A stretch of DNA of 63,451 bases, from the NCBI RefSeq assembly GCF_000813725.1, contig NZ_JWLD01000019.1:1-63451 (forward strand), read 5' to 3'. A model generated the notes under the pieces. It was not told the DNA's origin. It did no database searches and saw nothing but the letters and a program-made list of their open reading frames with translations. Shown here one piece after another: positions 7,991 through 27,027 of the stretch. The stretch comes from Leisingera sp. ANG-Vp. GTDB taxonomy: Bacteria > Pseudomonadota > Alphaproteobacteria > Rhodobacterales > Rhodobacteraceae. The position numbers and the translations under genes were made by a program. The stretch's first letter is position 1; the number at the start of each line of letters is the position of its first letter.

Positions 7991-9193
<1,203 letters not shown>

Positions 9194-9224: not shown

Positions 9225-9254
9225 GGCCCTGCCGGTTTCCGGCGGGGCCTTTCT
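9225..9254 (+). terminator. Terminator after pcaF
   Basis: GGCCCTGCCGG (9225-9235), TTT loop, CCGGCGGGGCC (9239-9249), followed by TTTCTG. It closes the pcaIJF operon. Confidence 0.8.
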
Positions 9255-9524
9255 GCTGTTCAAGCACAAGCCGTTAGAAACAAAGGCATATAACCAAAGG
9301 CACAAGCTGCCGGTCCCAACATTCAATCGACTGACCGCAGCCCCTCATTCATAGGTAGCCTGGGAAACGGCCGGTCTCGGCGCACCGCATCTGCGTGGCG
9401 GCGTGCAGGACAGGCCAACTCCGGGCGCAGGGCTATCCACCGGCGTCCGGAGCTTAACACAGGGTCCGGAGGGGCTGTCAGATGGCAGCCAAATCCGCGG
9501 CAGAAGGCTCGTAAGGAGACAAAT
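9255..9524. promoter_or_regulatory. Non-coding region upstream of the decarboxylase-like gene
   Basis: 270 bp between the pcaF terminator and the next ATG, with no credible gene. It contains GGCATATAACC (9285-9295), a partial match on the minus strand to the GGTTATA element found at three promoters further along, but without the second half of that motif at the expected distance. The promoter of the 9.5 kb operon must lie here; AAGGAG at 9513-9518 is the ribosome-binding site of the next gene. Confidence 0.4.
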
Positions 9525-10490: not shown

Positions 10491-10599
10491 CCGCCGGATC
10501 TCATCCCGGCCCTGCCGGTTGGCCCATCTGCCCCGTGCCCCGGGCGCAGAACCAATCGGTGCATCTAAACGACAGCCGCTACCCAGGGAGGATAGGAAG

Positions 10600-11172: not shown

Positions 11173-11432
11173 CTGCAAAACTCCGGCGATGACCGCTTTA
11201 GGCCATCGCCTCCCCCAAAGCCTGCCAGCTGAAACCTTACCCGCCCTGCCCTCTGCCAGCGCCTGGCCCGCAACGGTCCATTGCCCCGGCCGCCAGCGCC
11301 CCGAACCAAGACCGCTTCGAGAACCCGAAACACCCGACACGCGCGGACTGACCCTCCGGCCACGCGGCCAATGCCCCGTGTGCGCGAACCAACCAGATAT
11401 GGGCATAGCCCCATGAAATCAGGAGAAAACCC

Positions 11433-12599: not shown

Positions 12600-12689
12600 G
12601 CGCCAAGTGCGGACAGGCCGGCGGCGCACCCTCGACCGCCGGCCTGACATCTTGAATTTCCCAACCATTTCCAAAGGGCGAGGCACAGC

Positions 12690-13811
12690 ATGGGCCACTT
12701 CATTTCCCTGCCGCAAGAAACAATCCTGTGGGGCGAGAACAGCCTGCCGGCATCTCTGAGCCGGTTTCCGGAATTCGGCATCTCCCGTCCGGTTGTCTTT
12801 ACCGCCGATGTGCTCGAGGCGCTGGCACAGGAGCACGTGCTGCCGCATCTGGCCGAGCTGCATCTGGGCCTGGTCACCGACCTGCCCGCCCATGCGCCCG
12901 ACACCGGCATCCGCGCGGCCCTGGAGGCGTGCAAACGGCTAGGCGCGGGCTCGATCATCGCGGTTGGCGGCGGCTCGGTGCTGGATGCGGCCAAGGCGGT
13001 CTCATACCTGCACTACCAGGAGACCGGGCGCTATCTGCCGATCGCTGCCCTGCCGACCACGGTTTCCGGTTCGGAATATTCCCATTACTTCGGCATCACC
13101 GAAACCGACGGCCCGCAGCTGTTCAAACGCAGCTATGCGGTGCGGGAGACAACGCCCAAGGTTGTCGCGCTGGACCCGGTGCTGCTGCGCACCGCACCGC
13201 GCGGGCTGCTGCTGTCCTCTGCCATCAAGGGCATCGACCATGCCGTCGAAGGCATGCGGAAGGTTGAGGCGGACCACCCGCACGCAATTATCGCCGCTGA
13301 TGGCGTGAACCGGTTCCTGTCGGTGCTGGAACGCTGGCCTTCAGAACTCAGCACCCAGGACGCCCTGGCCCAGGGCCTTATTACGGACGGGGATCTGGTG
13401 CAACTGCAGCTGGGCGGCTGGTACTGCTATTTCACCCCCGCTTCGATGATCTATGGCCTCAGCCACCGCATCGGCCACATCCTGGGCGGCACATTCGAGC
13501 TGCCGCACAGCATGACGTCGTGCATCACGCTGGCGCCGGTGATCCGCGCCTGTGCGGACATGTACGGCGGGAAACTGAACGGGTTTGTGGCCGCCGATGC
13601 GCGCGGCAATGCTGCCGCAGCACTGGCGGACCGAATTGAACGAACGGTCCGCTCGTTAGGCCTGCCCAGCAGGATCAGCGCTTTCGGCCTGTCCGACGAA
13701 AAACTGCCGGAAGTTTCCCGCCTTCTGCGGGAAAGCTATCCCAACGAAGTCGCTGATTTGGGCGGGGATGCGGCGAGAAAACTGGACGATCTGCTCGAGG
13801 CCATCTGGTGA
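12690..13811 (+). CDS. Iron-containing alcohol dehydrogenase family, maleylacetate reductase-like
   Basis: A 373-residue group III alcohol-dehydrogenase-fold protein: an N-terminal Rossmann-like NAD(P) domain with GGGSVLDAAKAV (93-104), and a helical C-terminal domain with GIDHAVEG and GLSHRIGHILGGTFELPH. Three of four canonical metal ligand positions are His184, His259 and His273, but the first Asp is Lys180. Maleylacetate reductases also lack that Asp and work without the usual metal. The call is therefore reduction of maleylacetate or a similar ring-cleavage product to 3-oxoadipate, for which pcaIJF lies upstream. It overlaps the amidase start (TGATG). Confidence 0.78.
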   Translation: MGHFISLPQETILWGENSLPASLSRFPEFGISRPVVFTADVLEALAQEHVLPHLAELHLGLVTDLPAHAPDTGIRAALEACKRLGAGSIIAVGGGSVLDAAKAVSYLHYQETGRYLPIAALPTTVSGSEYSHYFGITETDGPQLFKRSYAVRETTPKVVALDPVLLRTAPRGLLLSSAIKGIDHAVEGMRKVEADHPHAIIAADGVNRFLSVLERWPSELSTQDALAQGLITDGDLVQLQLGGWYCYFTPASMIYGLSHRIGHILGGTFELPHSMTSCITLAPVIRACADMYGGKLNGFVAADARGNAAAALADRIERTVRSLGLPSRISAFGLSDEKLPEVSRLLRESYPNEVADLGGDAARKLDDLLEAIW

Positions 13812-15160
13812 TGCTCCGGGGCAAGGACCGCGCGCTGCCAGTCTCCGAAACCCTCGCCGGGCTCAAATGCGGGGAAATCAGTGCGTTGGATGCCGCCCGG
13901 GAGGCGCTGACCCGTGCCAAACGCTGCCGGATCGACATCAACGCATTCTCGGTGCTGGACAAGAAAGGCGCTCTGGCAGCTGCGGCAGAAAGCGAGCGCC
14001 GGTACAAAGACGGCACTCCTCGGCCCTTGGAAGGGGTGCCGGTGGCAGTCAAGGACATGATCGATACCGCAGGGTGCGAAACACGTTACGGCTCACAAGC
14101 CTTTGTCGGCAATGTTCCCATCCGAGATTCCGCCATCGTCCGTTCTCTGCGCGAGGCGGGTGCCGTCATCACAGGCAAGACCACGACTCATGAATTTGCC
14201 TGGGGCGTCACCACCGCCAGCGAGGCTTTCGGCGACACCCTCAACCCGCATGATAAGTCCCGGATCCCCGGCGGCTCCAGCGGCGGGATGGCCGCAGCCA
14301 TCGCCTATGGAGCGGTGAGCGCGGGGCTGGGCACCGACACTGGCGGATCAGTCCGTATCCCGGCGGCTTTGTGCGGCACCGTGGGGTTCAAGCCGACGTA
14401 TAACCGCCTGCCATCGCAAGGGATTTTTCCGCTGGCAAAGTCACTGGACCACCCAGGGATCCTTGGCGCCGCGATGGAGGACGTGATTGCGCTATCCGCC
14501 GTCTTTGGCCTGGAGGCGCAGCGCCCGCCGGAAAAACTGCGGATTGCCGCGCTACCCCATCTGCCGCCGGTCCCGGCAGATACGGCGACCGCCGCCGCCT
14601 TTAAAGCCTTCTGCCAGCAGCTGGAGCCGCTGGCCCGCATCACGCCTTTGCAAGATACGGAGATGTTCGAAGGCCTGTTCGATGCCTTTGCTGACACTGT
14701 GCTTGTCGAGGCCGGCACCGAGCACAGCGCCCTGCACGACCCGGAGTTCATCCGCGAGACCTATCAACCGGAGACCGCCTCGCGGATCGAACTGGCGCAG
14801 GCAAAATCCGTGTCCGACCTGACATCGGCCCGCAAACGGACCTGGCAATTCCAGTCCGATCTCGCGCGGTTGTTCGAAGAGTTTGACTTCCTGATTCTGC
14901 CCACCTGCCCCTGCACTGCCCCGCTGCGCGGCCAGGCAGAGCTGACTATCGGCGGCTGGAGCGGATCGGAGCGGCAGGTCCTGATGGCCTATACCGCCCC
15001 CTTCAATCTGGCCGGAACACCGGCTTTGTCCCTGCCAGTTCAGCATCTGACCGGCTCGGAACTTCCTGTTGGCGTTCAATTGGTTGCCGCGTCGGGCAAT
15101 GATGAAATGCTGCTTGGGCTGGCCAGGCGCCTGGAAGGAATTCTGCAGCCTGCCGCCTGA
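13811..15160 (+). CDS. Amidase signature-family amidohydrolase
   Basis: A 449-residue amidase. The catalytic triad of the amidase signature family is present: Lys81 (VAVKDMIDTAG), the cis-Ser of GGSSGG (156/157) and nucleophile Ser180 (GTDTGGSVRIP). It hydrolyses a small or aryl amide to acid plus ammonia or amine. The ATG at 13811 overlaps the preceding stop by one base (TGATG), implying coupling; a GTG one codon earlier is possible. As last gene of the 9.5-15.2 kb unit it suggests the substrate, or an intermediate, carries an amide. GatA is excluded by context and by lack of GatBC partners. Confidence 0.85.
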   Translation: MLRGKDRALPVSETLAGLKCGEISALDAAREALTRAKRCRIDINAFSVLDKKGALAAAAESERRYKDGTPRPLEGVPVAVKDMIDTAGCETRYGSQAFVGNVPIRDSAIVRSLREAGAVITGKTTTHEFAWGVTTASEAFGDTLNPHDKSRIPGGSSGGMAAAIAYGAVSAGLGTDTGGSVRIPAALCGTVGFKPTYNRLPSQGIFPLAKSLDHPGILGAAMEDVIALSAVFGLEAQRPPEKLRIAALPHLPPVPADTATAAAFKAFCQQLEPLARITPLQDTEMFEGLFDAFADTVLVEAGTEHSALHDPEFIRETYQPETASRIELAQAKSVSDLTSARKRTWQFQSDLARLFEEFDFLILPTCPCTAPLRGQAELTIGGWSGSERQVLMAYTAPFNLAGTPALSLPVQHLTGSELPVGVQLVAASGNDEMLLGLARRLEGILQPAA

Positions 15161-15670
15161 CACGCGTGGCGCGAGCCCGCTTGGCCCGAGGATTACATTT
15201 TTGAAAACAAAGAGGAAAACACTGGAACGCCGGGTCAGCCCCGGTAAGCCTAGAATGCAACTATCGCAATTTGCCCTTGGCAGGCATCAGACAGAAGGAG
15301 GCGAGGCGATTACTTGGTTATACCACCGGGCTGCCAATTCATTACCTTTCGCCGGCACCGCTCAGTAATCTGCGTCCTGAGAGGCAGGCTGCGAAGCGCG
15401 GGGAAGCAGCGCGGCAGAAACCGGCCCTCTCCCGGGACTTCCTGAAAACCCGTTCGTGCGGCGTCAGGTCCCGGCAGATCCCCGCGCAATGCGCGGAACT
15501 GTCCGGCTTGTGACATTGGGCCTGGCCGCCCTGAACCGGCGGCCACCCTCAGAAAACACTCAGCGGACGCATCAATTCACACCATCCCGCCGGGACACCC
15601 GGCCGGGACCGGACCGGTGCGTCCTGCCGTCAGGCGGAGCCTGCCGGCTGACATCAAAGGGAGTATGAAA
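15161..15670. other. 510-bp intergenic leader upstream of the TRAP operon
   Basis: No convincing protein gene. It holds the shared operator/promoter motif at 15316-15369 and then an approximately 300-nt leader before dctP. The leader is GC-rich and can form several hairpins; no known riboswitch class was recognised. Confidence 0.6.
15316..15369 (+). promoter_or_regulatory. Shared catabolic-regulon promoter motif, copy 1 (TRAP operon)
   Basis: GGTTATACC (15316-15324), 11 bases, AATTCATTACC (15336-15346) followed by TTTCGCC, then AGTAAT (15364-15369) as a possible -10 element. The first element is extended to the dyad TGGT-TAT-ACCA. Two other promoters (19603, 24730 minus) have the same parts at identical distances. 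Relative to the inferred -10, the parts fall near -60 and -35, the usual recognition and activation sites of LysR-type activators. Confidence 0.75.
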
Positions 15671-16642
15671 ATGAAGAGCCTTCTTTCGTCGTTCGCCGCC
15701 GTTGGCGCCATGATGATGGCCCCCGCCGTGGCAGCGGAGGAGATCACCATGAATGCGGTGACAATGACCCCGAAGACCCACAACCTGTCGCACGGGTTCA
15801 GGATCTTCATTGACGAGATCAACGCCAAGTTCGAGGGCGAGTTCCAGATCAACTGGCGCGGCGGCCCGGAGGTGATCCAGATGTTCGGCCAGGCCGACGC
15901 CGCCCGCAACGGCGCCATCGACATCGCCTTCACCGACCCCAGCTTTTATGCCGGGCTGGTTCCGGCGGCCAAGACCCGCTACTTCACCAATGCGGACTAC
16001 GCCGGCGTGAATGCCGCAGGCTTCAACGAGAAGATGCAGGCGCTGCACGAGGGAAGCGGTCTGTTCTACCTGGGAGCGGTGCCCGCCTCGGAAATCAAGT
16101 TCCACTTCTACCTGCGCGAGCCAATCGAGACCCTGGAAGACCTGAAAGGCCGCCGCATCCGCTCCTTTCCCACCGTGCAGCCGATGGTCGAGGCTCTGGG
16201 TGCGGCACCGCTGGTGCTGCCGATCGGCGAAATCTACACCGCCATGGAGCGCGGCGCGATTGACGGGTTTGTCTTCGGCCCGGTGGGCTGGGGCGACCAG
16301 TTCAAGGGCGTGGTGAAGCAGGTTGTGACCCCGGGCTTCTATCAGGGCGGCTTCAACGCCGTGGTCAACCAGGACGCCTGGAATGAGCTGCCCGAGGAGC
16401 TGCAGGCCCGCATCGTCGACTTTGTCCGCAATGACCTGGCGCCGCGCATCGACGCCAGCTGGAGCGGTGTGATCAGCGACGCCTTCGGCGAGATGGAAGC
16501 GGCCGGCTATGCGCTCTATGACCTGCCGGAGGCCGAGCAGGAGAAATACCAGGGGCTGGCAATGGAATCCGCCTGGGAAACCATGGCCAAGTCCATTGAC
16601 CCGGAAACCGCCGCCGAACTCCGCGAAATGCTGAACAAGTAA
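15671..16642 (+). CDS. dctP: TRAP transporter solute-binding subunit DctP
   Basis: A 323-residue periplasmic binding protein of the DctP family, with a cleavable signal (about residues 1-20, ending MMAPAVAAEE). Family signatures include LKGRRIRSFPTVQPMVEALGA and PIGEIYTAMERGAIDGFVFG, in which the conserved Arg binds substrate carboxylate. The ATG at 15671 is preferred over 15665 because GGGAG then has seven-base spacing. A perfect terminator-like hairpin separates it from dctQ, so binding protein can be made in excess over the membrane subunits. The ligand is probably an organic or aromatic acid, given the neighbouring catabolic genes. Confidence 0.9.
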   Translation: MKSLLSSFAAVGAMMMAPAVAAEEITMNAVTMTPKTHNLSHGFRIFIDEINAKFEGEFQINWRGGPEVIQMFGQADAARNGAIDIAFTDPSFYAGLVPAAKTRYFTNADYAGVNAAGFNEKMQALHEGSGLFYLGAVPASEIKFHFYLREPIETLEDLKGRRIRSFPTVQPMVEALGAAPLVLPIGEIYTAMERGAIDGFVFGPVGWGDQFKGVVKQVVTPGFYQGGFNAVVNQDAWNELPEELQARIVDFVRNDLAPRIDASWSGVISDAFGEMEAAGYALYDLPEAEQEKYQGLAMESAWETMAKSIDPETAAELREMLNK

Positions 16643-16660
16643 CCGCAGCCCCTCACCGCT

Positions 16661-16690
16661 AAAGGGCCGGGCAGCAGCGCCCGGCCCTTT
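16661..16690 (+). terminator. Hairpin between dctP and dctQ (attenuator)
   Basis: AAAGGGCCGGGC (16661-16672) and GCCCGGCCCTTT (16679-16690) form a perfect 12-bp stem with a six-base loop. Partial termination here would give more DctP than DctQM, as is usual for binding-protein transporters. Confidence 0.75.
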
Positions 16691-16710
16691 GTTCAAACGG
16701 GACAAGCCCC

Positions 16711-17214
16711 ATGCCAGAACTATACGAACGAAGCAGCCGGCTGCTGAGCCGGATCAACCTGATATTGGCGGTCCTGGGGGCCTGCGTCCTGTCAGGGATT
16801 GCTCTCATCATCTTTTTCGAGGTCTTCTCGCGCACCTTCCTCGGTGTCTCCCGGCTGTGGGTGATCGAGGTTGCCGAATACGGGCTGGTCTACCTGACTT
16901 TCCTGGGCGCGCCGTACCTGCTGGAGAAGAACCAGCATGTCACCATCGACCTGATCTATGACGCGGTGCGCAGCGGGCCGAAACTGCTGCTGGCGGTGTT
17001 CAACAACACGGCTGGCGCCCTGCTGTGCCTGGCGCTGGCCTATGCAGGGCTGCAAGTGGTGCTGGACCAGGCCGCCACCGGTGTGCGCGAAGCCTCGGTC
17101 ATGGCGCCGCAGAAATACTGGATCTCACTCATCTTTCCCGGCGTGATGCTGCTGATGGCTCTGCAGTTTGCCGGAAAACTCCTGCGGACAATCGTCCAGG
17201 CGAAAGGGGCCTGA
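16711..17214 (+). CDS. dctQ: TRAP transporter small membrane subunit DctQ
   Basis: A 167-residue protein with four predicted transmembrane helices (about 18-38, 50-70, 88-110, 132-152). The EVFSRTFLGVSRLWVIEVAEY segment between helices one and two is typical of DctQ. It pairs with DctM in the inner membrane. The ATG at 16711 lacks a strong ribosome-binding site. The stop is followed one base later by the dctM ATG, so the two are cotranslated. Confidence 0.88.
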   Translation: MPELYERSSRLLSRINLILAVLGACVLSGIALIIFFEVFSRTFLGVSRLWVIEVAEYGLVYLTFLGAPYLLEKNQHVTIDLIYDAVRSGPKLLLAVFNNTAGALLCLALAYAGLQVVLDQAATGVREASVMAPQKYWISLIFPGVMLLMALQFAGKLLRTIVQAKGA

Positions 17215-17215
17215 C

Positions 17216-18529
17216 ATGGAATGGTATTGGGTTATCGCCCTGATCACCGGCGGCTTGCTCACCTTCATGATGCTGGGCCTTCCGGTCGCCTTCTCCTTCC
17301 TGCTGGTGAACCTCATCGGCGCCTACATGCTGTTCGGCGGCATGAGCGGGGTCGAGCAGCTGGTGGTGAACATCGTCGACTCCCTGTCGACCTTTACCCT
17401 GGTGCCGGTGGCGCTGTTCATGATCATGGGCGAGGCGATGTTCCAGTCGCGGATCGCCGTCGACCTGATGGACACCATAGACAAATGGTTCGGGAGGCTG
17501 CGCGGGCGCCTGGCCTTCATGGCAGTGGGCGGCGGCGTACTGTTCTCCACCCTGACCGGCAACTCCATGGGCTCGATTGCGCTCCTCGGATCCTCGCTGG
17601 TGCCGGAGATGGAGAAGCGCGGCTACAAGAAGCCCATGTCGCTGGGGCCGATCCTGGGCTCTGCCGGTCTTGCCATCATGATCCCGCCGAGCTCGCTGGC
17701 GGTGGTTCTGGGGGTGGTTGCCGAGCTTTCCATCGGCAAGATCCTGATCGCCATCATCCTGCCTGGGCTGCTGATGGCTGTGCTCTACACCGCCTATATC
17801 CTGATCCGCTGCACCATCGAGCCTGACGTCGCACCTTCCTTTGACGTGGAACCGGTGCCCTTGTCCGAAAAGCTTTCGGCCACTGCGGTCAACATCGTGC
17901 CGCTGGGTGTCATCATTTTCTCGGTCGTCGGCGTGATCTTCATGGGCATCGCTACTCCCAGCGAGGCCGCCGCAACAGGCGCGGTTGCCACTCTGCTCCT
18001 GGCCGCCGCCAAGCGCCGTCTGACCTGGGAAGCCTTCAGCAAGTCGATGTTCGGCAGCGCCAATATCTCGGTGATGCTGCTGATGATCGTCTCCGGCGCC
18101 GTCGCCTTCACCCAGATCCTGGCCTTCACCGGCGCTACCGAAGGCATGGTGCAGACCATCGTCAATCTGCCGATCAGCTCCGGCTCGGTTGTTCTGGTAA
18201 TGATTGCCACCGTGGTGTTTCTCGGCATGTTCATGGGGCCGATCCCGATCATGCTGGTGACCCTGCCGATCTTCGTGCCGGTGGTGATCCAGTTCGGCTA
18301 TAACCCGATCTGGTTTGCCGCCATGTACCTGGTGGCGATTGAGACCGGATCGACCTCGCCCCCGCTAGGCGGAGCGCTGTTTGTGATGAAAGCGGTCGCC
18401 CCCAAAGGCACCACGATGAATGACATCTACAAGGCTGCCACGCCCTTCATCATCTGCGACGTGCTGGCGATCGTCATCCTTTACCTGTTCCCGCAACTGG
18501 TGACCTGGCCGGTCAGCATCATGTCCTGA
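17216..18529 (+). CDS. dctM: TRAP transporter large permease DctM
   Basis: A 437-residue permease with a dozen hydrophobic helices. DctM signatures are visible, including TGNSMGSIALLGSSLVPEM, MIPPSSLAVVLG and IETGSTSPPLGGALFVMKAVAP, where the glycine-rich hairpins sit. It uses the sodium gradient to import the DctP-bound solute. The usual family length is about 425-440. A TTCG-loop terminator follows at 18543. Confidence 0.92.
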   Translation: MEWYWVIALITGGLLTFMMLGLPVAFSFLLVNLIGAYMLFGGMSGVEQLVVNIVDSLSTFTLVPVALFMIMGEAMFQSRIAVDLMDTIDKWFGRLRGRLAFMAVGGGVLFSTLTGNSMGSIALLGSSLVPEMEKRGYKKPMSLGPILGSAGLAIMIPPSSLAVVLGVVAELSIGKILIAIILPGLLMAVLYTAYILIRCTIEPDVAPSFDVEPVPLSEKLSATAVNIVPLGVIIFSVVGVIFMGIATPSEAAATGAVATLLLAAAKRRLTWEAFSKSMFGSANISVMLLMIVSGAVAFTQILAFTGATEGMVQTIVNLPISSGSVVLVMIATVVFLGMFMGPIPIMLVTLPIFVPVVIQFGYNPIWFAAMYLVAIETGSTSPPLGGALFVMKAVAPKGTTMNDIYKAATPFIICDVLAIVILYLFPQLVTWPVSIMS

Positions 18530-18542
18530 CACCGGCTCCTGC

Positions 18543-18566
18543 GGCAGCCCTTCGGGGCTGCCTTCA
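18543..18566 (+). terminator. Terminator after dctM
   Basis: GGCAGCCC, TTCG tetraloop, GGGCTGCC (18543-18562), followed by a short T/A tail. It suggests that the following lysR gene is at least partly a separate transcript. Confidence 0.7.
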
Positions 18567-18620
18567 AGACGTGTTTGCCATGCGGGTGCGGGACCGCCCC
18601 GGCAAACGGAGGGAAAGACC

Positions 18621-19580
18621 ATGAAGCCCATCCGCCTCCGCCTGAAAATCCGGCAAATCCAGGTTGTTCTGGCCATTGCCGACATGGGCAACCTGCTGCG
18701 GGCCGCCGGCAAGCTGCACATAACCCAGCCTGCCATCTCCAAGGCGCTCACAGTGATCGAGGAGGATATCGGCGAGCGTCTGTTCGACCGCACGCCCTAT
18801 GGTGCCCGCCCCACCCCGGCCGGCGAAGTGGTGATCCGCCACGGACGCAATGTGCTGGCCGATATCCAGCGCATGCAGGACGATCTGGAGGCCACCCTGC
18901 GCGGCGACACCGGCAGCCTGCGGCTGGGAGTGTTCTCGCTGATCTCCGACTGGGAGGCGATCAACCAGGCCATTATCCAGGCCAAGGCCAAAGCACCGGG
19001 CCTGACGCTGGTGATCGACACCGGCAAGATGGAGGATCTGATCGAGAAGCTGGACGGCGGCCAGCTGGACGTGGTGATCGGCCGCTATCCTTACACCGCG
19101 CAGCAGGGCCATCACACCATCAACGGCATCACCCGGGACCGGATTGTCGCCGTTGTCCGCCAGGAACACCCGTTGCTGCAGGAGGCTGATGAGCCGGATT
19201 TCCGGCAGCTGCTCGACTACCCCTGGGTGCTGCCGCCCAAAGACAACCATGTCCGCATGCAGCTGGAGCTGGAGGTCTCGGCCATGGGCGCACAGCTGAG
19301 CGAAACCTCGGTGGTATCGCTGTCAATCCCGATCAACACCGGGCTGATCCGCAGTACAGACTCGATCATGATGATGCCGAAATGCGTCGCCAAGGCGCTG
19401 GAGCGCAGCCATGGCTTGCGGATCGTGCCGTGCGAGCTGCCGCTTTCGGTTGGCCCGCTGGTGGCAATCTGGCGTTCGGACCGGGTGGTGGATCAGCTGC
19501 GCGACATCTTCATTGACGAGCTGGAGGAGGCTGTGGCGCTGGAGAACGAGGGCGCAGACAACCTGCCGCGGCCCGAATGA
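18621..19580 (+). CDS. LysR family regulator of the catabolic island
   Basis: A 319-residue LysR-type protein. The HTH (IRQIQVVLAIADMGNLLRAA, then ITQPAISKALTVIEEDIG, about residues 10-45) is followed by a linker helix and an effector domain with LDVVIGRYPY (about 150-160). The overall pattern resembles PcaQ/GbpR-type activators. A GGAGGG site precedes the ATG. It sits between the TRAP operon and the HOD-like gene, both of which carry the same two-part operator, as does the porin operon beyond. It is therefore the best candidate for the factor that binds the motif. The inducer is unknown. Confidence 0.87.
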   Translation: MKPIRLRLKIRQIQVVLAIADMGNLLRAAGKLHITQPAISKALTVIEEDIGERLFDRTPYGARPTPAGEVVIRHGRNVLADIQRMQDDLEATLRGDTGSLRLGVFSLISDWEAINQAIIQAKAKAPGLTLVIDTGKMEDLIEKLDGGQLDVVIGRYPYTAQQGHHTINGITRDRIVAVVRQEHPLLQEADEPDFRQLLDYPWVLPPKDNHVRMQLELEVSAMGAQLSETSVVSLSIPINTGLIRSTDSIMMMPKCVAKALERSHGLRIVPCELPLSVGPLVAIWRSDRVVDQLRDIFIDELEEAVALENEGADNLPRPE

Positions 19581-19602
19581 AAGGCCGCGGGTCTTGCCGC
19601 AC

Positions 19603-19656
19603 GGTTATACCGGCAGGTGCCAAATTCATTATCCCCGCCCCCGCTGCTCCAGTAAA
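19603..19656 (+). promoter_or_regulatory. Shared catabolic-regulon promoter motif, copy 2 (HOD-like gene)
   Basis: GGTTATACC (19603-19611), 11 bases, AATTCATTATC (19623-19633), then AGTAAA (19651-19656). Spacing from first element to second (20) and from second to the possible -10 (28) is identical to the copies upstream of the TRAP and porin operons. The putative leader to the GTG at 19835 is about 170 nt. Confidence 0.75.
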
Positions 19657-19834
19657 TTTCAGGCAGGAAACGGAGGCATCCCGGGCCCCGCCCGCGGATG
19701 CAGCAGATCGCGCGCAGCCCGCAATCAGAGACTGCTCTTTGCATGCGGGCCGGACATGGCAGGGCGCCCGGACACAACCACCACAAAAACCGGACCCGTC
19801 CCAGCCAGCACATGCAAAACAGGAGTGCTCTCAA

Positions 19835-20626
19835 GTGCAAGAAATTCAAGTAGGCAACAACACGCTGCAATATCAGGAAGCCGGATCAGGCGAAACAACG
19901 CTGCTGCTGATGACCGGCTGGTGCCAGGACGACCGGCTCTACCGCCATGTGATCCCGCTGCTGGCCGAACACTATCACGTGCTGCAGGTTAACTACCGCG
20001 GCCATCGCGAAGGCCTCGCCTACGACGGCGAATTTGGCGCGGCGGAGCTGATCGAAGATATGGCTGCCGTGCTGGACCTCAAGGGCGTCAAGCAGGCCGT
20101 CCCAATCTCCTGTTCGCACGGCGGCTGGGTCAACATAGGCCTGGCGGAGAAATTGGGTATTGAACGCATTCCCCGTTGCATCGTGACCGACTGGGCGATG
20201 AACCCGCCGCAGGAATTCCACGACGGTATCAAGCGCGGCCAGACCGACGAGCACTGGAGCGAGGTGCGCAATCATCTCTACAAGATCTGGATCGGCGGCT
20301 CCCGGTCCCAGGACGTGATTGATCACTGCTACAAGGAGTTCGAAGAATACGGCCAGGAGATGTGGGTCCGCTCCTGCCGCGTGATCGAAGGCGTTCACAA
20401 CGAATGGGAAACCCCGCTGAAACGCATCATGGCGCTGGCACCGTCGCGCCCTGTGGCCCATATCTTCTCGCAGCCCGCGACCGAAGAATACGAAGCCCTG
20501 CACAAACAGGCTGCCGAGGCGAACCCCTGGTTCACCTATTACCGCCTGCAGCCCGGCGTGTCGCACTTCCCGACCCTGGAATCGCCCGAAGCCTATGCAG
20601 CTGCAGTCTGCGACTTCGTCGGCTGA
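19835..20626 (+). CDS. Alpha/beta-fold cofactor-independent 2,4-dioxygenase, HOD/QDO-like
   Basis: A 263-residue alpha/beta-hydrolase-fold protein that resembles 3-hydroxy-4-oxoquinoline and -quinaldine 2,4-dioxygenases more than ordinary esterases. Matches to HOD include GWC.D.R near residue 28, SHGGWV, DW.M.P, the YG...W.RS.RVIE block, RP..HIFSQP..EYE and PWF.Y. Residues corresponding to HOD Trp36, Ser101, His102, Asp126, Trp160 and His251 are Trp29, Ser94, His95, Asp119, Trp152 and His244; HOD His38 is Gln31. HOD enzymes open the ring with O2, releasing CO and an N-acyl anthranilate. GTG start with AGGAG nine bases upstream. A simple hydrolase remains possible. Confidence 0.75.
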   Translation: MQEIQVGNNTLQYQEAGSGETTLLLMTGWCQDDRLYRHVIPLLAEHYHVLQVNYRGHREGLAYDGEFGAAELIEDMAAVLDLKGVKQAVPISCSHGGWVNIGLAEKLGIERIPRCIVTDWAMNPPQEFHDGIKRGQTDEHWSEVRNHLYKIWIGGSRSQDVIDHCYKEFEEYGQEMWVRSCRVIEGVHNEWETPLKRIMALAPSRPVAHIFSQPATEEYEALHKQAAEANPWFTYYRLQPGVSHFPTLESPEAYAAAVCDFVG

Positions 20627-20669
20627 CCCCTATCCCCTAAGCCGCGGACACCTCGCAGCGGCTTGACTT

Positions 20670-20706
20670 GCCGCTGCCGGACAGCTTCCGGCAGCGGCCT
20701 TTTCTT
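20670..20706 (+). terminator. Strong terminator after the HOD-like gene
   Basis: GCCGCTGCCGGA (20670-20681), loop CAGCT, TCCGGCAGCGGC (20687-20698), then CTTTTCTTA. The perfect 12-bp stem and T tail separate the dioxygenase from the yceI-like gene. Confidence 0.9.
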
Positions 20707-20728
20707 ACTATCCAACAGGAGAAAACCC

Positions 20729-21337
20729 ATGCGTCTGGCAAACATCATCCTGGCAGGCTCACTCGCCGCTGCCCCGGTCTATGCAGCAGAGCTGGCGGTG
20801 CCCAGCGGCACTTATGAACTGAAACCCACCCACTCCAGCCTGCATTGGCAGGTCAAACACTTCGGTATCTCGAACTACACCGGCAGCTTTACCGGCCTCA
20901 GTGCCACGCTGGAACTGGATGCCGCAGATCCGGAAAACAGCCAGCTGACTGCCACCGTCAATACCGCCTCGGTGGATACCGGCTTCCCCTGGCCGGAGGC
21001 GCATGACTGGAACGCGGAAATGGCAGGGCCTGAATGGTTCAACGCGGATGCATTCCCCAAGGCCGAGTTCACTGCTACCAGCCTCAGCATGACCGGAGAC
21101 AACAGCGGCGAGATGACCGGTGACCTCACCTTTCTCGGTGTCACCAAGCCCATTTCGATGGAGGTCAGCCTGATCGGCGCGCTGGGAGAGCGTAAGCACG
21201 CAGACGGCGCTGTCATGGGGTTTGAGGCAATGGCAAAGTTCAACCGTTCGGACTTCGGCTTTGGCATGCTGATCCCGGTCGCCAGCGACGAAGTCACCCT
21301 GTTCATCAATGCTGAGTTCCACCAGATCGTGGAATGA
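20729..21337 (+). CDS. YceI-family periplasmic lipocalin-like protein
   Basis: A 202-residue YceI-domain protein with a cleavable signal peptide (about 1-20, APVYAAE). The domain starts with the typical GTYELKPTHSSLHWQVKHFG, followed by NYTGSF, and FPKAEFTATS, and ends with DEVTLFINAE. YceI proteins form a lipocalin-like barrel that binds polyisoprenoids or other apolar molecules in the periplasm. The gene lies between the dioxygenase terminator and a bidirectional terminator, so it is probably transcribed alone or by readthrough. A role in handling a hydrophobic substrate is possible but speculative. Confidence 0.9.
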   Translation: MRLANIILAGSLAAAPVYAAELAVPSGTYELKPTHSSLHWQVKHFGISNYTGSFTGLSATLELDAADPENSQLTATVNTASVDTGFPWPEAHDWNAEMAGPEWFNADAFPKAEFTATSLSMTGDNSGEMTGDLTFLGVTKPISMEVSLIGALGERKHADGAVMGFEAMAKFNRSDFGFGMLIPVASDEVTLFINAEFHQIVE

Positions 21338-21393
21338 ACTGCCGGTGCGGAGCGCCGCCGCGTTCCGCACTCTTTCCGCAAGGCGCGGCAAAC

Positions 21394-21429
21394 AAACAGG
21401 CCGGTGCAGATCTCTGCACCGGCCTGTTT
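21394..21429. terminator. Bidirectional terminator between convergent genes
   Basis: AAACAGGCCGGTGCAGA (21394-21410) and its exact complement (21413-21429) form a 17-bp stem bounded by A-rich and T-rich ends. It serves both the yceI-like gene and the minus-strand hydrolase. Confidence 0.88.
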
Positions 21430-21454
21430 CAGACTTACCCCTTGCGCTGGCGGT

Positions 21455-22309
21455 TCAGACCATCCCCCGCAGAACCTCCATGACCGGGGTGCCTGCCTGT
21501 TCGAACTCAGCCATTGCGGTGAAGTGGTTTTTGTCCGGCTGCGCGTAGCGGGTCACGGAATTTCCAGCCGCTTCCCAGGCATCGGCGAATTCCTCGGACT
21601 GGCGGTGGAATTCGGTGGACTCTGCAGCACCGTAAGTCACATGCACCGGCGGCAAGCCGGAGCGGATGTGAAACTGCGGGCTGTTGCGCAGGATCTGCGC
21701 CATATCCAGCTGCAAGGCAGGTTGCAGGAAGGTGTATGGAAAGGGTTTGAGGTCGAACAGCCCGCTCACCGGAATGCCGCCTGCCAGGCAGTCATTTGGC
21801 AGGCCGTAGTCCTCTTCCCAATTGGTCAGCAGGCACATGGCGGTCAAGTGGCCGCCCGCGGAATGCCCCGCCACGATCACCCTGCGCCGGTCGAACTTCA
21901 GATCCTCGTTGCGGATCAGCCAGGCGACGGCCGCGCGGCACTGCCGCACGATCTCGTCCATGGTCACGTTCGGGCACAGGGTGTAGTTCACATTGGCAAC
22001 GCTGAAGCCCGTCGCCACGGGCCCCAGCGCCGCAAAGGCGAAATCCTCGCTTGCCAGCATCCGCCAGTACCCCCCGTGGAAGAATACCAGCAAGGGCGGC
22101 GCCTCGCCTTCAGCCGGGTAGAAATCCAGGTATTCCGGCCGCGTCTCGCCATAACGCAGCTTCATCTGCGGGCTGAGGGTGGCCAATGCCTTGGCGTTCT
22201 GCTCCTCGAAATGGCGCAGGTAGACCCCGAAATCCGGCACCGAGCTTTCGACGTCATACTGAACATCCAGCTCGGCCTGGGTTTTGAACTTGCGGTAGAG
22301 ATTGGCCAT
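21455..22309 (-). CDS. Alpha/beta hydrolase, arylformamidase (KynB)-like
   Basis: A 284-residue alpha/beta hydrolase. HGGYW at residues 78-82 is the oxyanion-hole motif of kynurenine formamidases, Ser150 lies in the nucleophile elbow GHSAGGH, and His262 in DKNHF completes the triad. The family hydrolyses N-formylkynurenine or related aryl formamides. It is the last gene of a three-gene unit with an outer-membrane barrel and an amidohydrolase, 35 bp after the latter. Because HOD/QDO enzymes generate N-formyl or N-acyl anthranilates, a coregulated formamidase is a natural next step. Carboxylesterase activity is an alternative. Confidence 0.8.
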   Translation of the reverse strand: MANLYRKFKTQAELDVQYDVESSVPDFGVYLRHFEEQNAKALATLSPQMKLRYGETRPEYLDFYPAEGEAPPLLVFFHGGYWRMLASEDFAFAALGPVATGFSVANVNYTLCPNVTMDEIVRQCRAAVAWLIRNEDLKFDRRRVIVAGHSAGGHLTAMCLLTNWEEDYGLPNDCLAGGIPVSGLFDLKPFPYTFLQPALQLDMAQILRNSPQFHIRSGLPPVHVTYGAAESTEFHRQSEEFADAWEAAGNSVTRYAQPDKNHFTAMAEFEQAGTPVMEVLRGMV

Positions 22310-22344
22310 GTGCTGCCTCCTTCTGCTTCCGGATTGCCTATGGA

Positions 22345-23319
22345 TTACCGTCCGAACTGCGGAAACAGCTTTTCGGCGCTGCCGCGGTGGATCAGCGCCC
22401 GGTCCGCATCGCTCAGCCTGCTGTTTTCCGCCAGATCCTTGACCGAATGCTCGGTCAGCCAGCCTGGCCCAAACGGATAGTCGGAGCCGAACAGGATGTG
22501 ATCGGTCTCCACCAGCTCCAGCATCGTGGCAATCGGGAAGGCCGCCGCCGAGAAAGTGGTGTCGTAGTAGTAGTCCTTGAGATACTCCAGCACGTCCCGC
22601 TCCAGATCGAAGCCATGGATCATGTCAGCGGACTTCAGACGGAAACTCAGATACGGCAGCGTGCCGCCGCCATGGGACAGGATGATCGGAATGCCCGGGT
22701 GCCGGTCCAGCGTGCCCGACAGCACCATGTTGGCCGCGGCCCTGGTGGTGTCAAAGACGAACTCCATGATCCAGGGGTAATACGGCAACGGCAGGTCGTA
22801 CTGCGGCAGGCCCGGATGGATGAAGACCGGCAGCTTGCGGCGCGACAGTTCGGCAAACAGCGGCTCAAACCGCTCGTCGCCGGGATAAATCCCCTGATAG
22901 TTGGACAGCAGCACCAGACCGTCGAGCTTCAGCGTGTCCAGCGCATACTCCAGCTCCGCCAGCGCCTCGTCCACATGCGGCAGCGGCAGCACCGCGAAGG
23001 CCCCGAACCGTGTTGGGTGGTCCTGCTTCAGCCTGGCCAGGTACTCGTTGCACTCCCGCGCCAGGGCAATCGAGAAATCCTTAGGCCCGATCGAGGCGCC
23101 GGGGTCGGTAAAGGAGAGGATCGAGGTTTCAATGCCGCAGCGGTCCTTGTAGTCCAGTGCCCGTTCCGGCGTCCATTGCAGATCCGGCTCCTGCAGGCTG
23201 CGCCCGCCGATGGTGACCATGCCCTGCTCGCCCAGCCGCGAGGTGTACCAGGAGGGCAGCAGATGGGTGTGAACGTCGATCAGCCCAGCGCCGCCGCGCA
23301 GATTACCGTTTTTTGACAA
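22345..23319 (-). CDS. Amidohydrolase-2 family, ACMSD-like decarboxylase
   Basis: A 324-residue TIM-barrel amidohydrolase with the standard metal set: His17 and His19 in DVHTHLLP, His168 in VFIHPG, catalytic His216 in LSHGGG and Asp280 in FGSDYPFG. This is the layout of aminocarboxymuconate-semialdehyde decarboxylase and related non-oxidative decarboxylases. The start is TTG at 23319, supported by GGAG at suitable spacing; no closer ATG fits. It is the second decarboxylase-type amidohydrolase in the island, differing from the 9.5 kb gene in having His-x-His instead of Glu-x-His. The substrate is unknown. Confidence 0.8.
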   Translation of the reverse strand: MSKNGNLRGGAGLIDVHTHLLPSWYTSRLGEQGMVTIGGRSLQEPDLQWTPERALDYKDRCGIETSILSFTDPGASIGPKDFSIALARECNEYLARLKQDHPTRFGAFAVLPLPHVDEALAELEYALDTLKLDGLVLLSNYQGIYPGDERFEPLFAELSRRKLPVFIHPGLPQYDLPLPYYPWIMEFVFDTTRAAANMVLSGTLDRHPGIPIILSHGGGTLPYLSFRLKSADMIHGFDLERDVLEYLKDYYYDTTFSAAAFPIATMLELVETDHILFGSDYPFGPGWLTEHSVKDLAENSRLSDADRALIHRGSAEKLFPQFGR

Positions 23320-23385
23320 GGGGTTCTCCTTTGCTAAAGAACGCGCCGAACAGGGTCCGGCGCGCTGTCTCAGGTTGTTTGGGGA

Positions 23386-24501
23386 TCAGAACTCGAACCC
23401 GTAGTACAGGAAGATACCGGCCGAATTGGACGACACGCCGTTGGTCTCATCGCGCTTGTAGGCCAGCTCTGCATAAAGATCGCCAAAGTTCCGGCTGATT
23501 GAAGCCGTGACAAAACGGTTGTTGCCATTGGCCATTTCGGTGGTGTCGCTGCTGTTGCCGATCCGCTGGATGCCGCCGCCAAGTGACGCGACCCAATCGC
23601 CGCCAAAGTAGTAGGCGCCGGTTGCCATCAGCGAATCCTGGTCAAAGGAAATCCCCTCGTCCAGCGAGTTATCCAGGCTGACCAGTTCAGCGTAGACTTC
23701 CAGCTCGTTGCCGTTGGCAAGTTCAAACAGCTTGGCGCCGCCGATGGCAAAACCGGTCTCGGTCTCCTCATCCGGCGCACCGCCGTCCTGCGACCGGTAA
23801 GTCACGTTGTAGCGCGAGTTCTCGACGCCAAAGGCATCGTTGCCTTCCAGCCAAAGATTGTAGGACCCCAGGCCGCTGTGATTGCTCAGGCCGCCGTCTG
23901 CCCGCGAGGCCAGCTGTTCGCCGCGGAAGAAGCTGCGGGCCAGCGAGCTGGTGTCCAGCTGAAAGGCGCTGGCGCCAAGGGTATGCTCGCCGCCCGAAGC
24001 ATCGCCGAATGTATAGGTGGCGCCAACGCCAAGCCGCTCGACCAGCTCATAGCCATAGAAGTATTCGGCGCTGTAGAGATAGCCCACTGCGTCGTCATAA
24101 CCGATGCCGAACGTCGGGTTGAACTTGCCCCCGAAAAAACCGAAGCGGTCGAATTCCGCCGCAAGGTACAATTCTTCAAAGTAGAAGTCATAGTCATTCG
24201 GGAAGAAGCCGTCGCCTTTGACAGGCGCGCCGAGTACCACGCCGTTGATTGAGAAGTTTTCGTTGAAATAGTACCCAAGGCTTAGGGTCGCCGAATACTC
24301 GTTCTCAGACTCAAAGTTTGAGTTGTTATTGAAGTACTCCAGCTCCAGCTCGGCATAGTAGGGCTTATTGGGATCATAACCCTCGTCTTCTTCTTCATCC
24401 GGCACCGCGAGGTTGGCGTCATAATCTTCATCAGCCCAGCCAGCGGCGGGCATCATCAGCGCTGCGCTGAACGCCGCGATTTTCAGTGTGGTGGATGTCA
24501 T
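23386..24501 (-). CDS. Outer-membrane beta-barrel protein (porin-like)
   Basis: A 371-residue exported protein: signal peptide to about residue 23 (AAGWADED), an acidic linker with DEEEDEGYD, then alternating amphipathic strands rich in Tyr/Phe/Gly (YYAELELEYFNNN, EYSATLSLGYYF, FEELYLAAEF) ending in a C-terminal Phe (YYGFEF), the usual beta-barrel assembly signal. It is first gene of the minus-strand unit that also encodes the ACMSD-like and formamidase-like enzymes, and its promoter carries the shared regulon motif. It probably admits the substrate through the outer membrane. No closer family name is claimed. Confidence 0.78.
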   Translation of the reverse strand: MTSTTLKIAAFSAALMMPAAGWADEDYDANLAVPDEEEDEGYDPNKPYYAELELEYFNNNSNFESENEYSATLSLGYYFNENFSINGVVLGAPVKGDGFFPNDYDFYFEELYLAAEFDRFGFFGGKFNPTFGIGYDDAVGYLYSAEYFYGYELVERLGVGATYTFGDASGGEHTLGASAFQLDTSSLARSFFRGEQLASRADGGLSNHSGLGSYNLWLEGNDAFGVENSRYNVTYRSQDGGAPDEETETGFAIGGAKLFELANGNELEVYAELVSLDNSLDEGISFDQDSLMATGAYYFGGDWVASLGGGIQRIGNSSDTTEMANGNNRFVTASISRNFGDLYAELAYKRDETNGVSSNSAGIFLYYGFEF

Positions 24502-25019
24502 GTTTTTGGGTCCTCCCTAGTTCCGTCCCTTCCCGGCGCTGCCTGCCTCCTCAAGCAAGGCACCGCCGGCCGGCTGTGCCTGGCACACCGGTTCCGTGGG
24601 CTTCCGGCCATCGCCGGAAAGCCTGTCCTGATCGATTTTGGTAACTGCCGCCGAGTGTTCTCGTGCCGCCGCAACTGCTACCCTGCAGGCCTGGCGAAAG
24701 GTAATGAATTCAGGAACGCGCCCTATAACCGGGCGTCATGAGGCTTGAGTTTTCACGCAAATTCAAAGGCCTGCACAGAGCCTTGTCAAAGACGCCCTGC
24801 CGGGCCCGCCGCGCAGGTCCGCCACTGGCAGCGGCCTGACGCAATCCATACAGTTTTGTAAACTTGCCAGTTCGCCTTTGCGCCACGGCAATTGCGGCAT
24901 TATTTTAAGCTGCAAAGCCGCGAAGAGCGGGCCTCCTTCCCAAGCTCTTCCCGGGCCTCCCGGCAGCAGCGGGCAAACATTCGGCTGCGCTGCGGGCATC
25001 AGTAAACAAGAGAGACAGA
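24502..25019. other. 518-bp divergent intergenic region
   Basis: No credible gene. It contains the porin-side promoter motif (24677-24730, minus strand), an approximately 170-nt porin leader with a GCTTCCGGC...GCCGGAAAGC hairpin, and the upstream region of the response regulator. That regulator's ATG at 25020 has only a weak GAGAGA site. Confidence 0.6.
24677..24730 (-). promoter_or_regulatory. Shared catabolic-regulon promoter motif, copy 3 (porin operon)
   Basis: Read on the minus strand: GGTTATAGG (24730-24722), 11 bases, AATTCATTACC (24710-24700) followed by TTTCGCC exactly as in copy 1, then GGTAGC (24682-24677) at the -10 position. All spacings equal those of copies 1 and 2. It points toward the porin-amidohydrolase-formamidase unit. 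Confidence 0.75.
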
Positions 25020-25697
25020 ATGCACGTTCTGCTGCTGGAAGATGATGGAGAGATTGGCAGCTGGGTACGCGACGGGCTGACCCGCAGCGGCCATGTTGTC
25101 GACTGGTTCACCAGCGGCCGCGAAGCCTTGATCGCGGCAACCACATCGGATTACGAGGTTCTGGTCCTCGACCGGATGACACCGGACCTGGACGGGCTTG
25201 GCGTCTTGAGGACCCTTCGGGCGGCTGAGGTCATGACACCGGTTCTGTTCCTTACCGCCTTGGGCGAGGTTGAGGACCGGGTCGAGGGGCTGGAGGCCGG
25301 CGCCGATGATTACTTGTCCAAACCCTTTGCCTTTTCCGAACTGGAAGCCCGGGTCGCAGCGTTGGGCCGCCGCGCCCTGCGGCCCGGCGCGTCTGAGGCA
25401 ACCGCGCTCAGCTGCGGCGATATCAAGCTGGACCTGCTGAAGCAGAAATGCACCCGGCGCGGTGAGCCGGTGGACTTGAACACCAAAGAGTTCCGGCTGC
25501 TGGAAGCCTTCATGCGGTCCAAGGGCCGGGTGCTGACCCGCAATATGCTGCTGGAGAAGGTCTGGGGGCTGAATTTCGACCCGACCACCAGCGTGGTGGA
25601 AACCCATGTCAGCCGCCTGCGGGGCAAGATCGAAAAACCATTTGGAGATGCGGTGATCCGGACCATTCGCGGCGCGGGGTATGTGTTTGACCCATAG
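25020..25697 (+). CDS. OmpR/PhoB-family response regulator
   Basis: A 225-residue response regulator: receiver domain with acidic pocket LEDD (6-9), phospho-acceptor Asp51 (VLVLDRMTP) and the conserved Lys in SKPF near residue 101, followed by a winged-helix effector domain (KEFRLLEAFMRSKGRVLTR... VSRLRGKIE...IRTIRGAGYVF). It overlaps the sensor kinase gene by 17 bases. The pair precedes an envelope glycosyltransferase operon, the obvious target, reminiscent of PmrAB/arn arrangements in other bacteria. Confidence 0.92.
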   Translation: MHVLLLEDDGEIGSWVRDGLTRSGHVVDWFTSGREALIAATTSDYEVLVLDRMTPDLDGLGVLRTLRAAEVMTPVLFLTALGEVEDRVEGLEAGADDYLSKPFAFSELEARVAALGRRALRPGASEATALSCGDIKLDLLKQKCTRRGEPVDLNTKEFRLLEAFMRSKGRVLTRNMLLEKVWGLNFDPTTSVVETHVSRLRGKIEKPFGDAVIRTIRGAGYVFDP

Positions 25698-27027
25698 GCG
25701 GCTCTTCCGGCGGTATTTGCGGATGTCCGCCTTGCGGCAGTCGCTGGTGCTGGCGCTGTGCCTGTTCCTGCTGCAGATCGCCGGAGCGGTCCTGGCCGGC
25801 CTGATTGTGCGCAGCGAATTCGATCAGCGGGTCGAAGAGGATCTGAGCGCCCGGTTCGCGGTGATTGCCGAGGACATCCGATCCCGCGGCTTCGATCCCG
25901 CCGACTATGCCAACGACGGGAAGGACGCCGTCTATTTTCAAGCAAACGCGTCTAGCGCCGCCGAAGCGCCCGAAGGCATCTTTACCCTGCGAGGGCTGTT
26001 TGACGATGACCGGTGGGACCGCAGCACCGACTCCCCGCTGGCGATGTCGGGGGGGCATTGGTACTATTACGCCGGCGAAGCAAGCGGCAGTGTCCTGGTA
26101 GTTGGAAGCAACCTTGGCACCGGTACCTTCACACTCATCATTGTGCCTCTGACCTTTTTCACGATCGGCCTGGCCGTGTCGCTGATTGCAGTTCTTCTGG
26201 GGGCAGTCTTCAGCTTTCATTCGCAAAAACGCCTATCCCGAATGGCACGGGTGCTGGACCAGGTCGCTTCGGGCCGGCTGGAGGCGCGTGTAGCCCCGGC
26301 AGGCGCACGGGACGACCTTGATGACCTCGCCCAGAACATCGACCGCACGCTTGAGCGGCTTGAAGTGCTGTTCAACCAGTCCCGCAACATTGCCGCCAAT
26401 ATCGCCCATGACCTGAAAACCCCGCTAGCCCGCTTGCGCCTTCGGCTGGAAAACGCACTGCTGCTGGAGGATCCTGAAGACACCAAGGGCAACGTGGCGG
26501 CGGCCCTTACCCAGGCTGACCACATCATTGCCGTGTTTGAAGCCTTCCTGCGTATCGCGCGGCTGGAAAGCGGCAATGCCCGCAAACGGTTTGCACAGGT
26601 CAGCCTGCCCGAGATCGCTGCCGAGGCTGCCACCACCTTTGCCCCGGTGGCAGAGGATGCCGGGTTTGAATTCGCCACCGAAATTTCAGGCAACAGGCGG
26701 GTGCAGGGTGACGCAGTCCTGCTGACACAGATGCTCACCAATCTGATCGAAAATGCAATGCGCCACACTCCGCCTGGCAGCCGCATCACCCTGATCGCCA
26801 GCCAGACCGAGCTGGGAGTGGCCGACACTGGCCCCGGGCTGCCGCCGGACGCCTATGCCGAGGTCGTTAAACCCTCGGTCCGGCTGGACCGCAGCCGGAC
26901 CACGCCGGGCGCCGGGCTGGGACTGGCCCTGGTCAAAGCGATTGCCGACGCGCATGACGCCAGGCTCATCCTGTCCCCCGGCTCAGGCGGACGCGGCCTT
27001 CACGTCCGGGCGCGGTTTTCCGCCTAG
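25681..27027 (+). CDS. Sensor histidine kinase partner
   Basis: A 448-residue membrane kinase: TM1 about 20-43, periplasmic sensor about 44-150, TM2 about 152-178, HAMP about 178-232, HisKA with His243 in IAHDLKTPLARLRLRLENA, and HATPase with NLIENAMRHTPPG, DTGPGLP and GAGLGLALV boxes. The start at 25681 lies inside the regulator gene; an ATG at 25723 is the alternative. The periplasmic domain contains acidic patches (DDDRWDRSTD) that could sense cations or peptides, but no named sensor domain is recognised. Confidence 0.9.
   Translation: MCLTHRRLFRRYLRMSALRQSLVLALCLFLLQIAGAVLAGLIVRSEFDQRVEEDLSARFAVIAEDIRSRGFDPADYANDGKDAVYFQANASSAAEAPEGIFTLRGLFDDDRWDRSTDSPLAMSGGHWYYYAGEASGSVLVVGSNLGTGTFTLIIVPLTFFTIGLAVSLIAVLLGAVFSFHSQKRLSRMARVLDQVASGRLEARVAPAGARDDLDDLAQNIDRTLERLEVLFNQSRNIAANIAHDLKTPLARLRLRLENALLLEDPEDTKGNVAAALTQADHIIAVFEAFLRIARLESGNARKRFAQVSLPEIAAEAATTFAPVAEDAGFEFATEISGNRRVQGDAVLLTQMLTNLIENAMRHTPPGSRITLIASQTELGVADTGPGLPPDAYAEVVKPSVRLDRSRTTPGAGLGLALVKAIADAHDARLILSPGSGGRGLHVRARFSA

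Follow-up and report, generated by a model that had tools for sequence, protein, structure and literature searches.

A conserved two-part operator-promoter shared by three transcription units of a Leisingera gene cluster, and a PcaQ-like LysR-type protein as its likely binder

LysR-type transcriptional regulators (LTTRs) usually occupy a recognition site near position -65 and an activation site near -35 of their target promoters, and the cited passages describe no conserved motif as identified for the activation site (PMC5603801). The box of the LTTR PcaQ from Sinorhizobium meliloti is ATAACC-N4-GGTTAT (PMC3557286; also PMC5002191), and that of the PcaQ-type LTTR PA2206 from Pseudomonas aeruginosa is ATTGCCTGGGGTTAT (PMC3557286). 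For the second clc cluster of Bordetella petrii, alignment has led to the prediction that the recognition palindrome has lost one half, the activation site having been retained (PMC6449761). Here we describe a 63,451-nucleotide stretch of Leisingera sp. ANG-Vp (contig NZ_JWLD01000019.1; hereafter the window), in which three transcription units, headed by genes for a tripartite ATP-independent periplasmic (TRAP) importer, a HOD-like dioxygenase, and a porin-like protein, carry the same two-part operator, GGTTATA-N13-AATTCATTA. This shared operator is real and conserved in a second genus, and one LysR-type protein encoded within the cluster probably regulates all three units through it.

Re-reading of the sequence bore out the three 54-bp blocks of the preliminary description in position and strand, together with the identical spacing from the second element to a downstream GTA in each of them. 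The spacing had been given as 28 bases; only 18 lie between the 11-base second element and the GTA, and the start of AATTCATTA is 29 bases ahead of the start of the GTA. With the pattern defined as a 7-mer and a 9-mer and mismatches counted over both words, the window contained three exact sites and no further site at one to three mismatches, while 100 dinucleotide shuffles of the window yielded a mean of 0.02 sites at up to three mismatches, with a maximum of one and never three. A rough post-hoc estimate, which assumed independent bases, any 7 + 9 word pair, and any fixed gap of 0 to 30 at the size and GC content of the window, gave 0.009 expected triples of this kind. Scanning the 5.15-Mb genome at up to three mismatches returned five sites, namely the three exact ones, one with two, and one with three mismatches; the reversed pattern gave four matches at this threshold, and we therefore regard the two weaker matches as background. 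The motif thus does not occur at random or before unrelated genes across the genome, the three window sites being the only ones with at most one mismatch and all lying in this gene cluster. The suggestion that it would serve as a search key for further members led to none in the same genome. By eye, no direct or inverted likeness between the two elements was seen.

Matches with at most one mismatch were present in five of 101 genomes (ANG-Vp and 100 relatives): three each in ANG-Vp and the environmental isolate Leisingera sp. ANG-M1 (G020) and one each in G008, G053, and G091. The reversed control gave two, both in G066. The ANG-M1 sites lie at the same three promoters, with zero, zero, and one mismatch. 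The second genus is represented by a Ruegeria metagenome-assembled genome (MAG; G453), whose 20.9-kb locus (L012) encodes a LysR protein 81% identical to that of the window and homologues, 66 to 97% identical, of the block from the amidohydrolase gene at 9525 to the porin-like gene. Three sites with one, two, and three mismatches precede the same three genes in this locus, and none arose in any of its 100 shuffles. Compared in the register of the sites, the window and Ruegeria promoters were identical at 15/16 core versus 65/171 flanking positions for the TRAP unit, 13/16 versus 47/171 for the HOD-like gene, and 14/16 versus 69/171 for the porin unit. In a motif-free comparison of the upstream pairs, the best 29-mer clearly overlapped the site for the TRAP (24/29) and porin (22/29) units.

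Alignment of the nine sites revealed invariant positions at 2 to 6 (GTTAT), 14 (G), 21, 23 to 29 (TTCATTA), and 51 and 52 (TA), and a few further single columns, position 67 for example, were uniform. Two details of the preliminary description held in part: the first element ends in (C/G)(C/G) in eight of the nine sites, one Ruegeria site having CA instead, and the TA of the GTA is found in all nine but its G in only seven. Chance likeness, or a recent copy that has no function, is an extremely improbable origin for these sites. In the window, the TRAP and porin sites do share extra letters beyond the motif (AATTCATTACCTTTCGCC), which would be expected of a local copy, but this origin is contradicted by the shuffles, by the post-hoc estimate, and by the retention of all three sites in Ruegeria amid diverged flanks and spacers. 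A recently transposed repeat was ruled out as well, as the spacers and flanks differ and the genome has no other copy with at most one mismatch. Position 22 of the operator is A in the six Leisingera sites and T in the three Ruegeria sites, and residues 10, 30, and 33, in the helix-turn-helix region, distinguish the LysR protein of the window from its Ruegeria counterpart. A switch of this position at all three promoters between the genera would fit operator-regulator co-evolution.

The sites are confined to genomes that encode the LysR protein in the genera examined. At E ≤ 1e-60, this protein was found in two of the 21 genomes of the window genus, the same two that carry three sites, and in one of the 54 genomes of the genus of the Ruegeria MAG; across both genera, the genomes with the LysR protein and those with three sites inside about 10 kb are the same three. 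Among the other 19 genomes of the window genus, G008 alone has a single one-mismatch match. In the Ruegeria genus, an exact match to the degenerate pattern occurs in the MAG alone, and matches with up to one mismatch occur in 22 of the 54 genomes; the 21 genomes other than the MAG account for 29 one-mismatch matches versus 22 for the reversed control, and three of the 29 fall in one genome (G455), spread over three contigs. At the level of the family, two of 394 genomes have the exact degenerate pattern, ANG-Vp itself (three sites) and G332 (one site, in a 3.0-kb locus of a genome that is 73% complete), and the reversed control gave two matches. The LysR protein was found in the ANG-Vp genome only among these 394, with about five candidates scored per genome. 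We treated the one-mismatch sites in G008, G053, and G091 and the exact degenerate site in G332 as background because their short loci (L005, L002, L001, and L019; 1.8–3.0 kb) encode no relative of any of 26 window proteins.

Further afield, relatives of the LysR protein with 56 to 59% identity occur in Betaproteobacteria, including Paraburkholderia and Pandoraea; three of them (P0004, P0009, and P0011; 56–57%) come from these two genera. Such relatives point to a small, scattered LysR subfamily. A plasmid search returned one relative, 38% identical and in another context (MFS transporter, porin, carboxylesterase), and a class-level search of 369 genomes pointed to a single genome (G616), probably of Burkholderiaceae. 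Within the family of G616, no LysR match was found at 1e-75 in 349 genomes with six candidates scored per genome, a negative that is uninformative unless backed by a positive control. At 1e-50, no match came from the three Gammaproteobacterial genomes to which weak LysR loci belong.

Co-occurrence alone cannot name the regulator, as the IclR-type PcaR encoded upstream is distributed in the genus in the same way as the LysR protein. PcaR (331.5 bits against a cut-off of 284.75) is found in the same two of 21 genomes, which weighs against assigning the motif to the LysR protein, and an 83% identical copy stands at the start of the Ruegeria locus. It could be PcaR, then, that binds the shared motif, leaving the LysR protein with other targets. 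We consider this unlikely: PcaR is divergent from pcaIJF, its expected target, yet no site is found at up to four mismatches before pcaIJF or before the unit at 9525, and the positions of the elements and the PcaQ-like half-site fit a LysR protein. Control of pcaIJF by the neighboring pcaR has been suggested from homology in Agrobacterium, in a text that calls PcaR LysR-type (PMC12285266).

A regulator from elsewhere might also bind the motif, examples being a bona fide PcaQ, whose half-site the motif reproduces, and the two-component regulator at 25020-25697, a CzcR/CopR-like response regulator that starts about 290 bp from the porin block. This is less probable still. At E 1e-8, the Ruegeria locus matches neither the response regulator nor its kinase (25020-27027), yet it keeps the porin site. 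Of the 394 family genomes searched, 392 lack the exact degenerate motif (two matches in the reversed control). Since pcaQ-led operons have been described in roseobacters (PMC12442348), one would expect more of these genomes to contain an ordinary PcaQ site of this form.

The LysR protein itself has HTH_1 and C-terminal LysR_substrate domains, both above the curated Pfam cut-offs. Its best NCBIfam model is PcaQ (TIGR02424) with 158 bits, followed by a model at 94.5 bits; because 158 bits lies below the PcaQ equivalog cut-off of 303.8, we call it PcaQ-like rather than PcaQ. Being identical to the PcaQ half-site, GGTTAT is best read as the downstream half of a PcaQ-type box; it appears as such in six of the nine sites and as AGTTAT in three. 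Recognizable left halves stand four bases upstream in some sites (AGAACC in the Ruegeria TRAP site, ATAGCC in the ANG-M1 HOD site, and CTTGCC in two HOD sites), and the remaining sites have none. We infer that the invariant TA starts the -10 hexamer. Counted from that hexamer, the center of a T-N11-A dyad, the A of which (position 5) is kept in nine of nine sites, would fall at about -64, and the second element would span -42 to -34. If the TA does start the -10, these positions match the LTTR norm and mark a LysR-type promoter, so the earlier placement of the two elements near -65 and -35 stands while the 28-base spacing given with it does not. The near-invariant activation-site element is the unusual feature here; the arrangement, though exceptionally clean, is otherwise ordinary in kind.

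The same letters could be read as the core promoter of an alternative sigma factor, with GGTTAT as -35 and TCATTA as -10. The two hexamers (aligned positions 1–6 and 24–29) fit a 17-base spacer. We think this very unlikely, since three sites per genome at one mismatch or fewer, confined to a single catabolic cluster, are few for a sigma regulon, and the reading leaves unexplained the TA that is invariant in nine of nine sites 21 bases past the second 9-mer. A sigma-70 scan found no promoter on the strands of the sites themselves; within 15160-25020, where shuffles predict 1.8 matches, it called a single one, which crosses the HOD block (19656-19628) on the strand opposite to the site.

Several observations weigh against regulation of all three units by the LysR protein. 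The proposed porin -10, TAGCAG, is poor. The upstream half-site is weak: the T of T-N11-A occurs in six of nine sites, and similarity to ATAACC at a gap of four (23/54 letters) is no better than at gaps of three (24/54) or 17 (26/54), so the dyad is not established. The predicted leaders are long, about 293 (15378-15670), 170 (19665-19834), and 167 nt (24502-24668) in the window; those in L012, with start sites predicted likewise, are also long (about 130–230 nt), and no Rfam element that could account for such leaders reached the gathering score in 15160-25020. The Ruegeria sites were located with the motif itself, and in the motif-free comparison of the HOD pair the site segment was best by only 18 versus 17 letters. 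Finally, the two Leisingera genomes are close relatives, and the nine sites therefore represent just two diverged lineages rather than nine independent cases.

On balance, we favor the LysR protein as the regulator of the three units. The preliminary description had it activate all of them; the shared and conserved sites, their positions, and the PcaQ half-site speak for this, while the co-distribution of PcaR and the degenerate partner half temper it. A LysR dimer would anchor at the recognition site near -64, with GGTTAT as its downstream half and a degenerate upstream half, and the second dimer of the same tetramer would touch the AATTCATTA element at -42 to -34, beside RNA polymerase. On binding an inducer, the tetramer would shift on the activation site and recruit polymerase; the promoter itself would offer a TA(N4) -10 while lacking a good -35. 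The TRAP importer, the HOD-like dioxygenase, and the three minus-strand products (porin, amidohydrolase, and hydrolase) would thereby be switched on together. As lysR follows dctM on the same strand after 91 bases, it may be co-activated, giving positive feedback. A strong hairpin (18543-18562) lies between the two genes; its fold z-score is only -1.13, and the terminator scan did not call it. We also entertain, with considerable doubt, a bolder proposal, in which the recognition site has shrunk to one strong half, GTTAT, the activation site is a near-invariant A(A/T)TTCATTA, and the regulon underlies a marine pathway for the uptake and opening of 3-hydroxy-4-quinolone-like compounds into the 3-oxoadipate route. 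Were specificity to have moved in this way, it would reverse the usual picture, in which the activation site lacks a consensus. The regulon is compact and unique in the genome, and each of the two genera supplies three natural replicates of a single promoter, which makes the locus well suited to testing what is read by the LysR activation site, itself poorly understood.

Table 1. Operator-promoter blocks and genes of the cluster in window coordinates. The starts of dctP, dctQ, and dctM and the GTG start of the HOD-like gene were picked by eye.
Feature	Position	Strand	Details
TRAP-unit operator/promoter block	15316-15369	+	GGTTATA 15316-15322; activation-site-like AATTCATTACC 15336-15346; probable -10 TAATCT 15366-15371, extending 2 bases past the block; orthologous sites in ANG-M1 and Ruegeria L012
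HOD-like gene operator/promoter block	19603-19656	+	GGTTATA 19603-19609; AATTCATTATC 19623-19633; probable -10 TAAATT 19653-19658; orthologous sites in ANG-M1 and Ruegeria L012
Porin-unit operator/promoter block	24677-24730	-	GGTTATA 24730-24724; AATTCATTACC 24710-24700; probable weak -10 TAGCAG 24680-24675; orthologous sites in ANG-M1 and Ruegeria L012
LysR-type regulator, 319 aa	18621-19580	+	Pfam HTH_1 and LysR_substrate; proposed binder
TRAP gene dctP	15671-16642	+	Pfam DctP
TRAP gene dctQ	16711-17214	+	Pfam DctQ
TRAP gene dctM	17216-18529	+	Pfam DctM
HOD/QDO-like cofactor-free dioxygenase	19835-20626	+	similarity to PDB 3ibt
YceI-like protein, possibly downstream in the HOD unit	20729-21337	+	Pfam YceI
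Outer-membrane porin-like protein	23386-24501	-	first gene of the minus-strand unit; signal peptide, C-terminal F
Amidohydrolase_2, gamma-resorcylate/ACMS decarboxylase relative	22345-23319	-	Pfam; PDB 2f6k, 2dvt
Alpha/beta hydrolase (lipase/esterase/kynurenine-formamidase group)	21455-22309	-	Pfam BD-FAE, Abhydrolase_3
PcaR, IclR-type	5694-6491		divergent from pcaIJF
pcaIJF	6440-9193		divergent from PcaR

Through the shared operator, genes of both strands would join one proposed catabolic pathway. The HOD-like protein is similar over its full length to solved HOD/QDO enzymes, which would make cofactor-free cleavage of 3-hydroxy-4-quinolones its predicted activity: it matches 1H-3-hydroxy-4-oxoquinoline 2,4-dioxygenase (PDB 3ibt) over residues 1 to 262 with an E value of 3.6e-57, its nine best PDB sequences (3.6e-57 to 2e-49) are all HOD/QDO or similar putative dioxygenases, and the next PDB family follows at 1.9e-06. 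A search of limited sensitivity in a set of 5.8 billion proteins returned six at E 1e-30, and close relatives of this dioxygenase look rare. Its co-transcription with the YceI-like gene is uncertain because a terminator-like hairpin (20670-20698) lies in between. The alpha/beta hydrolase matches Lipase 1 (PDB 9n8r; 2.8e-40) and, more weakly, kynurenine formamidase (PDB 4e11; 2.2e-16). The porin-like protein has no Pfam or NCBIfam match at E 0.001 and was judged by eye to be a porin from its signal peptide and C-terminal phenylalanine. Taken together, it is plausible that the three units take up an aromatic, perhaps quinolone-like, compound and open its ring, and a route from such a quinolone-like or related aromatic compound toward 3-oxoadipate is likewise plausible. 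No upper-pathway quinoline hydroxylase was found among the proteins of the window locus scanned for families.

The genes upstream that lack the motif are pcaIJF and those for a second amidohydrolase, an MhqO-like dioxygenase, a maleylacetate-reductase-like dehydrogenase, and an amidase. The motif-free aromatic-catabolism block next to the regulon (5694-15160) comprises PcaR, pcaIJF, the amidohydrolase, a cytochrome b561, the MhqO-like dioxygenase, an Fe-dependent dehydrogenase, and the amidase. Most of this block is kept in the Ruegeria MAG. The orientation of PcaR differs there, and the locus stops shortly after it; pcaIJF, which has no match in the locus, may therefore lie beyond its edge. 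Divergence is uneven: the amidohydrolase at 9525-10490 is 97% identical to its L012 counterpart (1054-2016), compared with 93% for the MhqO-like dioxygenase, 66% for the amidase, and 67% for the porin-like protein, which could reflect strong constraint or recent exchange. The Fe-dependent dehydrogenase matches L012 (4209-5130) in two pieces in different frames, indicating a frameshift or an assembly error. Elsewhere in the ANG-Vp genome (contig C79, 8048-8076), and also in G008 and ANG-M1, we noticed a conserved GATTATATGAACAC(T/C)TGTTCAATTCA(A/T)TA that includes the palindrome GAACA-N2-TGTTC and is probably bound by another regulator.

Among the literature matches listed, no title on this cluster was found; in one set of 525 matches, none of the 10 listed names Leisingera. 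As for described systems, the HOD/QDO locus of Arthrobacter sp. Rue61a likewise places a HOD-like enzyme in an N-heteroaromatic catabolic cluster, but that text names two PaaX-related regulators and never uses the word LysR (PMC3534580). CatR/ClcR-type promoters offer a precedent for an activation site that persists next to a recognition site with one strong or one lost half, although their half-site is AkACC-N5-GGTAT and their regulators are different ones (PMC6449761). For PA2206, the box ATTGCCTGGGGTTAT resembles CTTGCC-N4-GGTTAT of the window HOD promoter, and the regulator gene, as in the window, is not divergent from an adjacent gene; its box, however, lies at the predicted -35 of the target, and its function is in oxidative stress (PMC3557286). 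The nearest likeness by NCBIfam model is to PcaQ, with which the LysR protein shares a setting in aromatic catabolism and, letter for letter in six of nine sites, the half-site GGTTAT. Unlike that of PcaQ, the upstream half of the site is degenerate here, the target genes are others, an invariant A(A/T)TTCATTA occupies the activation-site position, and lysR points the same way as two of the units proposed as its targets instead of diverging from one.

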